From positions 1 to 41,901 of the forward strand of contig JAITUY010000105.1 of assembly GCA_031286095.1 (NCBI GenBank): a stretch of DNA of 41,901 nucleotides, written 5' to 3'. The DNA is from Treponema sp. Its GTDB lineage: Bacteria; Spirochaetota; Spirochaetia; Treponematales; Breznakiellaceae. Under the pieces are notes generated by a model. It searched no databases. It had not been told where the DNA came from and was given only the letters and a program-made list of their open reading frames with translations. How positions within the stretch are numbered: position 1 is the stretch's first letter; each line of letters begins with the position of its first letter. The translations under genes were made by a program, and so were the position numbers. Positions 7,905 through 41,901 of the stretch are shown in pieces.

Positions 7905-8061
7905 GGAAGAAATACCTCTCGCAAAGGCGCAAAGTTTTCGTCCGAAAGCTCCTATATCATTAATACGAAAATATGAAGGTAAGGAAAATATAACGAACAA
8001 CAACTCTGCGCCTTTGCGCCTCTGCGAGAGCTTTTTCCCGTACCCTGCGCCTCCGCGAGAA
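7905..8061. repeat. Family A-like element, copy A3 (diverged)
   Basis: Starts atacctctcgcaaaggcgcaaag and ends with tctgcgcctttgcgcctctgcgagag, then a second partial end, ctgcgcctccgcgagaa. The core is different from A1 and A2 and contains ttttcgtccgaaagct, which resembles the cores of A7 and A8. It fills the space between the convergent pfp and aspS genes. Confidence 0.65.
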
Positions 8062-15147: not shown

Positions 15148-15292
15148 TGTATCCCCCTTGACATCTCAAACTAACTTATATAGAATAGGCGTCCTTGGAA
15201 TAAATTTACCCCTCTTATCAAGAATAAGGTAAATTTATAATATTTGCAAGTTTTTTTTACTGTTTTTTTTAAAAAAATTAACCAATTACTAA

Positions 15293-15347
15293 TTAGAGTC
15301 TTATAATGTGGGCACATTATGACTCGTACCCTAATGTACGCGACTAT
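15293..15347. repeat. Family C element C1, left part
   Basis: Contains the hairpin gagtcttataatgtgGGcacattatgactc, the counterpart of the 16-bp palindrome in the complete C element at about 29131-29250. The rest of this copy resumes at 15754, after an inserted B element. Confidence 0.6.
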
Positions 15348-15349
15348 TA

Positions 15350-15753
15350 GTCTGTAACAGCTAAATGTTCACAATAACTTATTACCAGACATTTTCACGC
15401 AGAGGTCGCGGAGACGCAGAGGATCAAGGGTGATTAGCTAACTTGTATCACTTTCATGTTGTTTTTCATTATAAAATAGAGTTGTTCGTAAACTTCAGTT
15501 TCTGAACAACTTCATATAAAAAACGCGGTTTTGTCGAACTTTCGGACTAAAGTCCGCGTTCGCAGGCTTATAGCCTAAAAAACAGCAAGACTGGTCAGCG
15601 TAGCTGACATGAGACAACCAACCGGGTTATCTTACAAGTCAATAATAAAAAAGCATAGCTGGAAACGCGCAATTAGGTAATAAAGCGCAGTTCTCCGCGC
15701 CTTTGCGACCTCTGCGTGATAAAAAATAGAGTGTAGTTTTAGTTGTTACAGAC
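15350..15753. repeat. Family B MITE-like element B1, inserted in C1 and carrying a D insert
   Basis: The terminal inverted repeats are gtctgtaacagctaaa at the left and tttagttgttacagac at the right. Both are flanked by TA (attaGTCTG and CAGACtacta), suggesting a TA target as in Tc1/mariner or IS630-type transposition. The interior has the family B landmarks in order: acgcagaggtcgcggag, ggatcaagggtgattagcta, ttgtatc, ctttcatgttg, aaaaaagcatag, ggaaacgcgcaattaggtaa. A D element interrupts it at about 15478-15640. Confidence 0.75.
15478..15640. repeat. Family D element nested in B1, with three micro-hairpins
   Basis: Bounded by agagttgttcgtaaacttcagtttctgaacaact and acaaccaaccgggttatcttacaagtc. 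It interrupts the B sequence cattataaa/aataataaaaaagcatag. Its centre differs from the other D copies and holds three consecutive small stem-loops: CGGACTaaAGTCCG, AGGCTtatAGCCT and GTCAGCgtaGCTGAC. Confidence 0.65.
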
Positions 15754-15832
15754 TACTACCTTAAAACGTATTTTCGTAGCAGGCGGGAAAATACAAGGTC
15801 TGTCCGCAAAGTAACCGACTTTGTAGACAGAT
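15754..15832. repeat. Family C element C1, right part with stem-loop
   Basis: It resumes the C sequence (ctaccttaaaacgtattttcgtag) and ends with the 15-bp stem gtctgtccgcaaagt/actttgtagacagat. This ends one base from the stop codon of the last permease gene, so it could stop or stabilise that operon's transcript. There is no T-tract. Confidence 0.6.
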
Positions 15833-15833
15833 A

Positions 15834-16649
15834 CTAATTAGTACCCCGGCGCGGAAAAATCGATATAAAAATAAGGGCGATTAACGCGGTAATATACGGA
15901 AAAGCGAGCAAAAAATCGGCGGGAAGGGACATGAACCCCTGCGAATAATTGGAAAAAGCCTCGGCAAGGCTGAAAATAAAAGCGGCAAAAAGGACGCCCA
16001 ATGGGTTTCGTCCCCCAAGGAAGATTACTGCGAGCGCAATCCAGCCTTTTCCGGCGGACATTCCCGGCACGAATGCGCCAAGGTTCAAACTTAAAAATGA
16101 GCCGCCTATTCCGCATAAAAAGCCGGAAATCAGCAAAGCTGTGGTTTGGTACGCCTGCGGTCTTATCCCAAGAGAGACAAGAGCGCAGACGTCTTTTTCG
16201 CAGGCGCGAAGACGGTAGCCAAAGGGCGTTTTGTAGATCGCAAGCCAAGATACCGCAAGCGTAATTATTCCGGCGATAACATACCATTTTTGAAGTCCGG
16301 TTACGTTTTCGGACACAACCACCCCTCTTGTACCGAATAATTTATCGGAAAAAACTACGCACAAACCGCTTGAAAAAAGGTTTACTGCAAGCGCGGAAAT
16401 AAAAAGATTTGCGCGTAATTTGAATACTGCAAATGCGTGCAGAGCCGAAAGCGCCGTCCCCGTGATTATTCCTGCCGTTATTGCAGAGAAAACGCTTCCC
16501 GTAGCGTAATAGACTGCAAGAGACGAAAAAGCGCCCGCAAGAAGCAGTCCCTCAAGCGCGATGTTGAGGGTTCCGGCAAGAACTGGAAATAGTCCGCCTA
16601 CCGAAGCAAACAGCAGAGGAATCATCATTGTAACGGCGCTTTTAAACAT
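15834..16649 (-). CDS. ABC importer permease 2 (BMP/nucleoside type)
   Basis: An integral membrane subunit of the branched-chain/ribose permease family (PF02653), partner of the preceding permease. I prefer the ATG at 16649 over the track start at 16688, because GAGGGG lies about eight bases ahead and the protein then begins MFKSAVTMMIPLLFASVGG. The motif LAGTLNIALEGLLLAGAF near the N-terminus is the family's signature. About 271 residues with roughly eight membrane segments. It overlaps the end of permease 1 by eight bases and is the last gene of the operon. A family C hairpin follows its TAA directly. Confidence 0.85.
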   Translation of the reverse strand: MFKSAVTMMIPLLFASVGGLFPVLAGTLNIALEGLLLAGAFSSLAVYYATGSVFSAITAGIITGTALSALHAFAVFKLRANLFISALAVNLFSSGLCVVFSDKLFGTRGVVVSENVTGLQKWYVIAGIITLAVSWLAIYKTPFGYRLRACEKDVCALVSLGIRPQAYQTTALLISGFLCGIGGSFLSLNLGAFVPGMSAGKGWIALAVIFLGGRNPLGVLFAAFIFSLAEAFSNYSQGFMSLPADFLLAFPYITALIALIFISIFPRRGTN

Positions 16650-22275: not shown

Positions 22276-22404
22276 TTACACTCCTTTGGTTCAATTATCG
22301 GCGTTTAAAACCGGTAATTTAAGGGATTATTTGACATAAAGAAGTATCTTTCGAGAGATACGGAAGAGATATCTCTCACAGAGGTGCGTAAGAAGATTTA
22401 TTGA

Positions 22405-22566
22405 AGAAACACCTCTCGCAGAGGCGCGGAGGCGCAAAGTTGTTGTTTGTAAAATTTTCATTATACTTTTCAAGATTTTTGTATTAGTTAATATATCAAG
22501 TATGAAGAGGAGCAATCGGACTAGGACTCCGTGTCTCTGCGCCTCTGCGAGATATCTTTTCCGTAT
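22405..22566. repeat. Family A element, copy A5 (well preserved)
   Basis: Ends are TCTCGCAGAGGCGCggaggcgcaaag and ctctGCGCCTCTGCGAGA, an 18-base terminal inverted repeat with one mismatch, around the typical core (gttgttgtttgtaaaattttcattatac... aagaggagcaatcggactagg). A second partial end (gagatatctctcacagaggtgcg) lies just before it. It fills the 400-base gap ahead of the XRE gene. Confidence 0.78.
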
Positions 22567-22676
22567 TATCATTCCCCGCGCACTTTCGTCAATAATGCAT
22601 TTCGTGTTGTTTCATGACAAATTCCAACAGCGACAATTTATCCGCCATCGGTTGTTTGTTTGTTTTCCTATAAAAA

Positions 22677-24751: not shown

Positions 24752-25315
24752 ATGATTAAAGCCGTAGACGTCGTAAAAGGCACTTGCCTGCTTCAAAAGG
24801 GACAGCCGTATCTGGTGGTTGAAAGGGAATTGCACAATCCCGGAAAGGGAACTTCTGTAGCCAGAATTAAAATGAAAAGTATAAAGGACGGGTCCGTTTT
24901 AAGCCTTACAATCCCCACTCAGCAGGAAGTTGAAGACGCGCAGGTCGATATTCACGCCTGCCAGTACCAATATGCGGATCAGGACAATTATCACTTTATG
25001 GATAACGAAAGTTTTGAACAGTACGAAGTTCCCATCACGGACGCTCCAGACAAAAAATTCTATCTTAAAGACGGCGACGTTTACGATCTTACAATTTGGG
25101 AAGGCAGGGTAATAGACATAAAAATTCCGTACAAGGTTGTTTTTACAGTCGCGCAAAGCGAAAATTATGTGAAAGGCGACACGGTTTCAGGCGCGACAAA
25201 ACCAATCATTACGGAAACGGGCTTAACGGTAAGGGTTCCGCTTTTTATCAAACAGGACGAAAAGATACTCGTGAATACCGAGACTAACGAATATGTCGAA
25301 AGAGTCAACAATTAG
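24752..25315 (+). CDS. efp: Translation elongation factor P
   Basis: EF-P enters the ribosomal E site and relieves stalling at polyproline stretches. The 187-residue length and three-barrel layout are normal. The tip loop of domain I reads HNPGKGTSVARIKMK, with the modifiable Lys at 32 as in lysyl-type EF-P, and the C-terminal barrel ends with IKQDEKILVNTETNEYVERV. agagga lies just upstream of the ATG. A C-family hairpin follows the stop at once. No modification enzyme gene (epmA or epmB) is in this window. Confidence 0.95.
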   Translation: MIKAVDVVKGTCLLQKGQPYLVVERELHNPGKGTSVARIKMKSIKDGSVLSLTIPTQQEVEDAQVDIHACQYQYADQDNYHFMDNESFEQYEVPITDAPDKKFYLKDGDVYDLTIWEGRVIDIKIPYKVVFTVAQSENYVKGDTVSGATKPIITETGLTVRVPLFIKQDEKILVNTETNEYVERVNN

Positions 25316-25352
25316 TGTCTGTCCATAAAGCCGGTTACTTTATAGACACACG
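25316..25352. repeat. Family C remnant: stem-loop between efp and symporter
   Basis: gtgtctgtccataaagccggttactttatagacacac folds on itself and resembles the right-hand stem of family C in reverse orientation (gtctgtccacaaagtcggttactttgcggacagac). No T-tract follows, so it may be a repeat relic and not a terminator. Confidence 0.55.
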
Positions 25353-25387
25353 CTAATTAAAGCCCAAATTTTATAAAGGAGCGTTTT

Positions 25388-28945: not shown

Positions 28946-29042
28946 TATTCTCTTATATTACGTTAATTTGTAAGTTATATTTCTTCTGTTCGTATTTGTC
29001 GTTAGGTTTGCGGTAAAGAATTATTTTCGGACACTCCTAGTA

Positions 29043-29395
29043 CTCTGTAACAGCTAAATGTTCACAATAACTATTACCAAACCTCCTCACGCAAAGGGCG
29101 CGGAGACGCAGAGGATCAAGGGTGATTAGCTAGAGTCTATCTATAATGTGGACACATTATAGATAGACTACCTTAAAAACGTATTTTCGTAGCCTTTAGG
29201 CGAGAAAATACAAGGTCTGTCCGCAAAGTAACCGACTTTGTGGACAGACACTAGCTAACTTGTATCCCTTTCATGTTGTTTTTCATTATAAATAATAAAA
29301 AAGCATAGCGGGAAACGCGCAATTAGGTAACAAAGCGCATTTCTCCGCGCCTTTGCGTGATAAAAAACAGAGTGTAGTTTTAGCTTGTTACAGAG
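29043..29395. repeat. Family B MITE-like element B2 carrying a C insert
   Basis: Ends are ctctgtaacagctaaatg and gttttagcttgttacagag, flanked by TA on both sides. The B landmarks (acgcaaagggcgcggag, ggatcaagggtgattagcta, ttgtatccctttcatgttg, gcgggaaacgcgcaattaggtaac) are all present. A full C element splits it between gtgattagcta and gctaacttgt. Confidence 0.78.
29131..29250. repeat. Family C element C2, complete, three hairpins
   Basis: Begins gagtctatctataatgtgGAcacattatagatagac, a perfect 16-bp palindrome with a two-base loop. The middle holds GTATTTTC...GAAAATAC, and it ends in gtctgtccgcaaagt/actttgtggacagac, a 15-bp stem with one mismatch. AGCTA stands on both sides and occurs once in uninterrupted B copies, as a 5-base target duplication would. 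Confidence 0.72.
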
Positions 29396-29425
29396 TACAG
29401 TGTATGGGTGAATATTGATAAAAGC

Positions 29426-35820: not shown

Positions 35821-36008
35821 TATTAACCTCCAACAGGGAATGGGGAATCTCAATTTCCTTTTTCCCTTTACATTTTTTTATATAACCGTTACTTCTACTG
35901 TAATTATGGGAAAAGTTTGCTTGATTGCTAGTATCTTTTGTCTTGAAAAAGTCACCTGTTGGGGTCATTGACGCCTTATTCCAAGTCGTTTGCACGACAT
36001 AAAACATA

Positions 36009-36225
36009 ACTTTGTTTTTTATCACGCAAAGGCGCGGAGAAATGCGCTTTGTTACCTAATTGCGCGTTTTCCTCTATGCTTTTTTATTATTTTATATTGA
36101 AAAACAACATGAAAGGGATACAAGTTCGCTAATCACCATTGATCCTCTGCGCCTCCGCGACCTCTGCGACCTCTGCGTGAGAATTTTTGGTAATAATTCA
36201 TTATGAACATTTAGCTGTTACAGAG
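36009..36225. repeat. Family B element B3, left end missing
   Basis: Matches B from tttgttttttatcacgcaaaggcgcggagaaatgcgc to ttagctgttacagag, in the orientation opposite to B1 and B2. The left terminal repeat is replaced by unrelated DNA (gtcgtttgcacgacataaaac). ttctag separates it from B4. Confidence 0.7.
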
Positions 36226-36233
36226 TTCTAGTA

Positions 36234-36469
36234 CTATGACAGCTAAAACTTTTTTTCATTTTTTATCACGCTGAGGCCGCAGAGGCGCGGAGAAATGCGC
36301 TTTGTTACCTAATTGCGCGTTTCCCTCTATGCTTTTTTATTATTTTCTATTGAAAAATAACATGAAAGGGATACAAGTTCGCTAATCACCCTTGATCCTC
36401 TGCGCCTCCGCGACCTCTGCGTGAGAATTTTTGGTAATAATTCATTGTGAACATTTAGCTGTTACAGAG
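36234..36469. repeat. Family B element B4
   Basis: Begins ctatgacagctaaaac, a variant of the left terminal repeat, and ends ttagctgttacagag. It has all family landmarks and is nearly identical to B3 where they align. The junction ttacagagttctagtactatgacagctaaaac occurs at both B3/B4 and B4/B5, and again at B6/B7. Confidence 0.78.
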
Positions 36470-36477
36470 TTCTAGTA

Positions 36478-36586
36478 CTATGACAGCTAAAACTTTATTT
36501 CATTTTTATCACGCAGAGGCGCGGAGAAATGCGCTTTGTTACCTAATTGCGCGTTTCCCTCTATGCTTTTTTATTATTTTATATTG
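36478..36586. repeat. Family B element B5, truncated by a D element
   Basis: Follows B from ctatgacagctaaaacttt to tatgcttttttattattttatattg, then breaks where a D sequence begins. The right half of B is not seen afterwards. Confidence 0.7.
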
Positions 36587-36656
36587 AACAAGTCTTGCAT
36601 TTTTTCGGACAAAAGCCTTACAAAAATACAATTATAAGAAATTTTTTAAACAACTC
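36587..36656. repeat. Family D element, partial
   Basis: aacaagtcttgcattttttcggacaaaagccttacaaaaatac to ttttttaaacaactctac matches the middle and right of the 9851 copy; its left end is shortened. Confidence 0.55.
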
Positions 36657-37981: not shown

Positions 37982-38163
37982 AAATCTCTCGCAGGGGCGG
38001 ATACTCAGAAGGAGCTCTCGCAGAGGCGCAAAGGCGCAGAGTTGTTGTTTCTTATATTTTCTTTACCTTCAAGATTTTCGTATTAGGATAATAATTGTAT
38101 ATTAATAGGAACTTTCGTACGAAAACTTTGCGCCTTTGCGCCTCTGCGAGAGGTATTTTCCGA
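37982..38163. repeat. Family A-like element, copy A7 (tandem duplicate partner of A8)
   Basis: Bounded by aatctctcgcaggggcgg with a second end ctctcgcagaggcgcaaaggcgcagag, and by gcgcctttgcgcctctgcgagaggtattttccg. Its core contains aggaactttcgtacgaaaact, a 12-base palindrome. It lies just upstream of the double-HTH regulator and so overlaps its leader or promoter region. Confidence 0.7.
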
Positions 38164-38172
38164 AACATCTCC

Positions 38173-38240
38173 GAGTTGCCGAGTTCTTGCGCAGTTGATA
38201 TTCTGCTATCAGCTAAAAGTTCCATTTTCATTATAGCCGT
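38173..38240 (-). pseudogene. Fragment of the double-HTH regulator's 5' end with a 72-bp deletion
   Basis: gagttgccgagttcttgcgcagttgatattctgctatcagctaaaag matches 37815-37861 inside the regulator gene. The match then jumps to ttccattttcattatagcc (37934 onward), so 72 bases of the gene are missing here. It reads MKMELLADSRISTAQELGNS on the minus strand, against MKMEL...LADGRIPNAQKLGNS in the intact gene. A frozen relic of a tandem duplication. Confidence 0.8.
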
Positions 38241-38269
38241 TTATACGGTTTATAGCAATAAAAAGAAAA

Positions 38270-38467
38270 ATCTCTCGCAGGGGCGGATACTCAGAAGGCG
38301 CTCTCGCAGAGGCGCGGAGGCGCAAAGGCGCAGAGTTGTTGTTTCTTATATTTTCTTTACCTTCAAGATTTTCGTATTAGGATAATATGTTGTATATTAT
38401 ATAGGAACTTTCGTACGAAAACTTTGCGCCTTTGCGCCTCTGCGAGAGGTATTTTCCGAAACATCTC
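38270..38467. repeat. Family A-like element, copy A8
   Basis: Nearly the same as A7 from aatctctcgcaggggcggatactcagaagg to gagaggtattttccgaaacatctcc, with a few added bases. It ends 15 bases before the bioY -35 hexamer, so the bioY promoter is just outside the repeat. Confidence 0.72.
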
Positions 38468-38481
38468 CTCCAACATGCCTA

Positions 38482-41574: not shown

Positions 41575-41846
41575 GTCTGTAACAGCTAAAACTTCATTTT
41601 ATTTTTTATCACGCAGAGACCGCAGAGGCGCGGAGAAATGCGCTTTGTTACATAATTGCGCGTTTCCCTCTATGCTTTTTTATTATTGAACTTGTTCGAC
41701 AATCAACCGGGTTGTCGAACAAGTCCAATGAAAACAACATGAAAGGGATACAAGTTAACTAATCACCCTTGACCCTCTGCGTCTCCGCGCCCTCTGCGTG
41801 AGGATTTTTGGTAATAAGTCATTGTGAACATTTAGCTGTTACAGAG
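41575..41846. repeat. Family B element B6, carrying a D hairpin
   Basis: Starts gtctgtaacagctaaaac after cta and ends ttagctgttacagag. All landmarks of the family are present in the orientation of B3-B5. A short D hairpin (about 41690-41733) interrupts it after cttttttattatt. Confidence 0.75.
41690..41733. repeat. Family D hairpin nested in B6
   Basis: ACTTGTTCGACAAtcaaccgggTTGTCGAACAAGT is a perfect 13-bp stem, equal to the left end of the D elements, with nothing of the D right end. Confidence 0.65.
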
Positions 41847-41854
41847 TTCTAGTA

Positions 41855-41901
41855 CTATGACAGCTAAAACTATACTTTGTTTTTTATCTCGCAGAGGTCG
41901 C
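41855..41901. repeat. Family B element B7, cut by window end
   Basis: Begins ctatgacagctaaaac directly after ttctagta, as in the B3/B4 and B4/B5 junctions, and continues into tttttatctcgcagaggtcgc at the window edge. Confidence 0.65.

Follow-up and report, generated by a model that had tools for sequence, protein, structure and literature searches.

Reciprocal nesting of two short, gene-less repeat families in a Treponema draft genome

Results

Repeats in the window

The window, the whole stretch of 41,901 nucleotides that was analyzed, is contig C58 (JAITUY010000105.1) of a Treponema draft genome (GCA_031286095.1; 2.77 Mb, 270 contigs, 88% complete), of which ca. 0.56 Mb was examined contig by contig. 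It contains copies of three repeat families, named B, C and D, several of them inserted in one another (Table 1). In a comparison of the window with Rfam a tRNA was the sole match, and no structured-RNA family was found at the elements. Dispersed repeats of the GCGCAGAGGCGCAAAGGCGCAGAG type were also observed (249-414, 7983-8050, 22404-22569, 38019-38468 and others), and like sequence is present inside B.

Table 1. Coordinates of B, C and D features in the window
Feature	Position	Strand	Description
C1	15290..15840 including flanks (element 15296-15834)	+	Long subfamily, interrupted by B1; TAATTA on both sides (15290-15295 and 15835-15840)
B1	15348..15755	+	B element within C1; flanks CTAT (15344-15347) and CTAC (15756-15759)
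D1	15479..15640	+	Third palindrome-ended element, within B1; AATA on both sides
Solo C palindrome	25313..25355	.	43 bp; flanks CAATTA / TAATTA
B2	29041..29397	+	MITE-like, ends TACTCTGTAACAGCTAAA.. / ..TTAGCTTGTTACAGAGTA, broken by C2; flanks CTAG / CAGT, unmatched
C2 target duplication, left copy	29127..29132	.	TAGCTA
C2	29133..29251	+	Short subfamily, 119 bp; a core between two palindromes
C2 left palindrome	29134..29169	.	AGTCTATCTATAATGTGG/ACACATTATAGATAGACT
C2 right palindrome	29215..29249	.	GTCTGTCCGCAAAGTAA../..GACTTTGTGGACAGAC
C2 target duplication, right copy	29252..29257	.	TAGCTA
B tandem array	36000..36591	-	Period ~250 bp, junction ..CTGTCATAGTACTAGAACTCTG..
Further tandem B units	41576..41897	-	Junction CTGTCATAGTACTAGAACTCTG, reaching the contig end; D palindrome at 41683-41731

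C2 is inserted in B2

The outer limits of B2 are CTCTGTAACAGCTAAA at 29043 and TTAGCTTGTTACAGAG at 29395, and C2 is its single interruption. Once C2 is removed, B2 shows 77-97% identity to some 40 other stretches of the same genome, and the empty site GATTAGCTAACTTG, either unchanged or differing at one or two bases, was found in more than 20 B copies lacking C. Seven C copies located elsewhere match C2 at 91-97% identity. The junctions read ..GAT TAGCTA GAGTCTATC...GGACAGACAC TAGCTA ACTTG.., with C2 between the two copies of TAGCTA. The empty sites and the flanking duplication confirmed the original prediction that C2 interrupts B2. That prediction had taken the duplication to be the five bases AGCTA; the duplication stands, but it is best read as the six bases TAGCTA, a reading under which the ends of C turn symmetrical (GAGTCT.. 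/ GTGTCT..). The gene upstream of B2 has relatives at 71-87% identity, and the sequence beyond it was not syntenic in the two loci read; because gene order past this gene is not conserved, no orthologous empty B2 locus was readable.

C elements duplicate TANNTA

C elements are about 119-155 bp long, too short for a transposase gene, and occur in dozens of copies with inverted terminal repeats (GTGTCTGTCC.. / GAGTCTGTCT..) and direct target duplications, as MITEs do. About 30 copies of the same genome, read with their flanks, lie between direct repeats of the form TANNTA, in the variants TAATTA, TAAATA, TATTTA, TAGATA, TAACTA and TAGCTA. Since TANNTA is AT-rich, a single such duplication is weak evidence and its strength lies in the ensemble. 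Across 1.22 Mb pooled from this genome, its congeners and named MAGs, perfect 6-bp duplications, nearly all of them TANNTA, were found in 66 distinct C copies. Among 176 C end pairs, an unselected candidate set that includes many mispaired ends, the middle two bases agreed in 78; the permuted mean was 23.4, and none of 20,000 permutations rose to the observed value. Where these middle bases are not palindromic, direct matches outnumbered inverted ones by 44 to 5, indicating that the flanks of C are target duplications and not extensions of its palindromes. The 66 perfect duplications, together with a left/right agreement above all 20,000 permutations, exclude chance as an explanation. With its six-base duplication C does not look like an element of the IS630/mariner type.

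C is common among Treponema MAGs, and C-type matches were obtained in 26 of 36 congeners. Among the matches listed, every named carrier is recorded as Treponema, Spirochaetaceae or Spirochaetia, and almost every one is a MAG; their sample names suggest a termite-gut origin. No C was found in viral contigs.

B elements most likely duplicate CTAN

B elements, ca. 230-245 bp long, carry no gene and are present in multiple copies. Like MITEs they have inverted ends (TA[C/G]TCTGTAACAGCTAAA; TACTCTGTAACAG ends next to CTAN) and what are most likely 4-bp duplications. Where both ends are present, the flanks were CTAG/CTAG in six copies, CTAC/CTAC in one and CTAT/CTAT in one, and over 12 copies 42 of 48 flank bases agreed (permutation p=0.012). 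B is nearly confined to its own genome, only short fragments of it being detected among the 36 congeners.

CTAG is the preferred target of IS630 elements too, and a parent of the IS630/mariner type, which would leave a TA duplication, had been expected. Most B copies do lie in CTAG, which could be read as a TA duplication with an extra G/C belonging to the element. However, left and right flanks tend to share their fourth base, and in two copies they do so where it is not G, as a 4-bp duplication predicts, and the IS630-type genes of this genome lack B ends. A TA duplication is therefore not clear, an IS630/mariner-type origin of B appears unlikely, and a duplication of the four bases CTAN is the most likely reading, on evidence that is good if not overwhelming.

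In addition to those in the window, tandem arrays of B were observed on contigs C59, C207, C221 and C183, with one recurring junction, CTGTCATAGTACTAGAACTCTG, which looks like the dispersal of a dimeric unit.

An IS5-type element of the genus was considered as parent of B. At least eight of its ends, sited at CTAG, are present in this genome, and a relative (L347) has a CTAG duplication at a CTAG insertion, much as in B; its ends (GGGCGTGTTCACACTAC), however, are unlike those of B (4 of 17 bases), so that it remains a lead. Two copies of the IS5-type element, L152 (contig C71) and L155 (contig C239), directly adjoin a B copy at a common CTAG. A third, L154 (contig C112), adjoins a D element.

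Nesting occurs in both directions

The reverse arrangement, B1 inside C1, had also been predicted and proved real, with D1 further inside B1. The flanks of B1 differ by one base, and its empty site, GCGACTACCTT, was found in intact long-type C copies; empty sites are thus available for C in B as well as for B in C. Two further cases of C within B were identified, one on contig C145, at the same TAGCTA as C2, and one on contig C112, at a different position in B, at TAATTA. The nearest relative of C2 is on contig C54 (96.8%) and that of the C copy on contig C145 is on contig C143 (96.4%). Because these two copies belong to different C subfamilies, their insertions at the same site were, judging from sequence, most likely independent events. 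D-type sequence was also observed within C copies on contigs C49 and C152.

The three-layer nest gives the order of insertion as C1, then B1, then D1, while at the other locus B2 preceded C2. This shows that B and C were mobile during overlapping periods. In this sense the proposed concurrent activity of the two families holds, but not as activity today, which nesting does not prove for either.

Could B and C instead be fragments of one parent transposon, nested by internal rearrangement? Both are short elements whose ends are CTCTG/GTCTG-like, and they often lie close together. Against this, each has its own ends and its own target (TANNTA versus CTAN); in most species of the genus C is present without B, so the two do not make up a single element; both kinds of nest have their empty sites; and C entered B at two different places from different subfamilies. 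A common parent is thus extremely improbable, and the original description of B and C as separate, non-autonomous elements was borne out.

Single palindromes of C carry their own duplications

C is built of two different palindromes, the left AGTCTGTCTATAATGTGG/ACACATTATAGACAGACT and the right GTCTGTCCACAAAGT..ACTTTGTGGACAGAC, around a short core. Each of them was also found alone, as a unit of 41-43 bp. At 20 loci with solo palindromes the middle target bases agreed in 13, versus 2.3 expected (0 of 20,000 permutations), and for non-palindromic middles 10 matches were direct and 1 inverted. These solo palindromes with TANNTA duplications of their own are the least expected part of the analysis and the one most worth following.

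The hairpins of C are strong, of REP-like size, and show paired changes between their arms above those of shuffled sequences, as would suit structural repeats (terminators or REP-like) spread by recombination, with TA-rich flanks of purely compositional origin. This account is nevertheless very improbable, given that the flanks agree directly and not in inverted orientation, both in C and in the solo units, and that the empty B sites show the insertion of whole units. As the copies compared were chosen by their palindromic pattern and are related, no RNA function is claimed from the paired changes.

D follows a plan like that of C, with a hairpin (AGTTGTTCGGAAACTTCAGTTTCTGAACAACT), a core and a second hairpin (GGACTTGTTCGACAACCAACCGGGTTGTCGAACAAGTCC). 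It is common at contig ends (C37, C59, C220, C147, C269 and others), and a few copies have CAATA- or AATA-like duplications.

Search for a parent transposase

A transposase associated with B or C ends was sought with the DDE_Tnp_1, DDE_3 and IS1182 models, with two local transposases by protein, in scans for end pairs of up to 4 kb, and in ORFs adjoining unpaired C ends. None was found in the examined contigs of this incomplete draft or of congeners, and the full-length IS630/mariner-type DDE parent that had been anticipated was not among them. Since multi-copy elements break drafts and are exactly what such assemblies lose, a parent could be missing from them.

The best lead for C is the IS1182 family. 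Of 17 bases compared, the C end GTGTCTGTCCACAAAGT shares 13 with the local IS1182 end GGGGCTGTCCAGGAAGT, several local IS1182-type ends are palindromic and fold back on themselves, and IS1272, a member of the family, acts on palindromes (PMC5678879). On the other hand, no IS1182 transposase gene with C ends was found, and IS1272 is reported to replace a target hairpin and to leave no duplication (PMC5678879), whereas C leaves six bases. Mobilization of C by an IS1182-family transposase is accordingly a tentative proposal, somewhat less probable than its converse. An IS1182-type gene, L136 (G009:C166), was observed with hairpins of terminal sequence at both ends, GGGGCTGTCCAATAAGAAAGGACAGCCCC at one of them, a fold-back design of ends common to this element and C.

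Discussion

The ends, duplications, empty sites and repeated, most likely independent, insertions of C into B are shown by the sequences. Combined, they make it very probable that B and C are two unrelated, non-autonomous miniature families which, in the manner of DDE-type transposons, insert as whole units and duplicate their target, and whose mobile periods overlapped. C would have entered TAGCTA within a B copy, doubling six bases, and B would have entered CTAC within a C copy, most likely doubling four. DDE transposases of other elements may supply the activity in trans: for C possibly an IS1182-like enzyme, as end similarity suggests, and for B probably one with CTAG-type targets, such as that of an IS5-family element.

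Nested MITEs are ordinary, and B and C fall among this known kind. They resemble bacterial MITEs in being short and gene-less, with inverted terminal repeats, target duplications and many, mostly intergenic, copies (PMC10969869). C differs from MITEs in general in having complete palindromes as ends, a lone 41-43 bp palindrome with its own duplication and TANNTA as target. The Coxiella elements QMITE1 and QMITE2 similarly have many copies of very variable length, reported as 39 to 400 bp for QMITE1; short QMITE2 forms, however, are truncated and without ends (PMC10969869), whereas C solos are symmetrical with both ends intact. RUP, Correia and ERIC are likewise small mobile repeats with terminal TA, stem-loops and insertion into other mobile elements (PMC2229807), but C is set apart from them by a TANNTA target of 6 bp and by having its two hairpins separate, and B by CTAN. 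In the literature searched, no paper joining TANNTA with insertion sequences was found, and the papers found to name MITE and Treponema together concern other bacteria.

The minimal C unit appears to be one 41-43 bp palindrome, in which an end faces its own reverse complement; the 119-155 bp form consists of two such palindromes flanking a core. Whether the bare palindrome, in effect a pair of transposase-binding ends joined directly with nothing between them, is the smallest mobile unit, able to transpose on its own into TANNTA and to duplicate six bases there, while pairs of palindromes carry short cores and D follows the same plan, is evenly balanced in our judgment.

Repeats such as B, C and D matter for assembly, draft contig ends often falling in them. 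Their reciprocal nesting provides a relative clock for two gene-less families, B and C each having offered targets to the other. If the 43-bp palindromes move on their own, few known DNA transposons would be smaller, and their mobility would afford a simple test of the minimum DNA that a transposase needs and would bear on the origin of REP-like palindromes.
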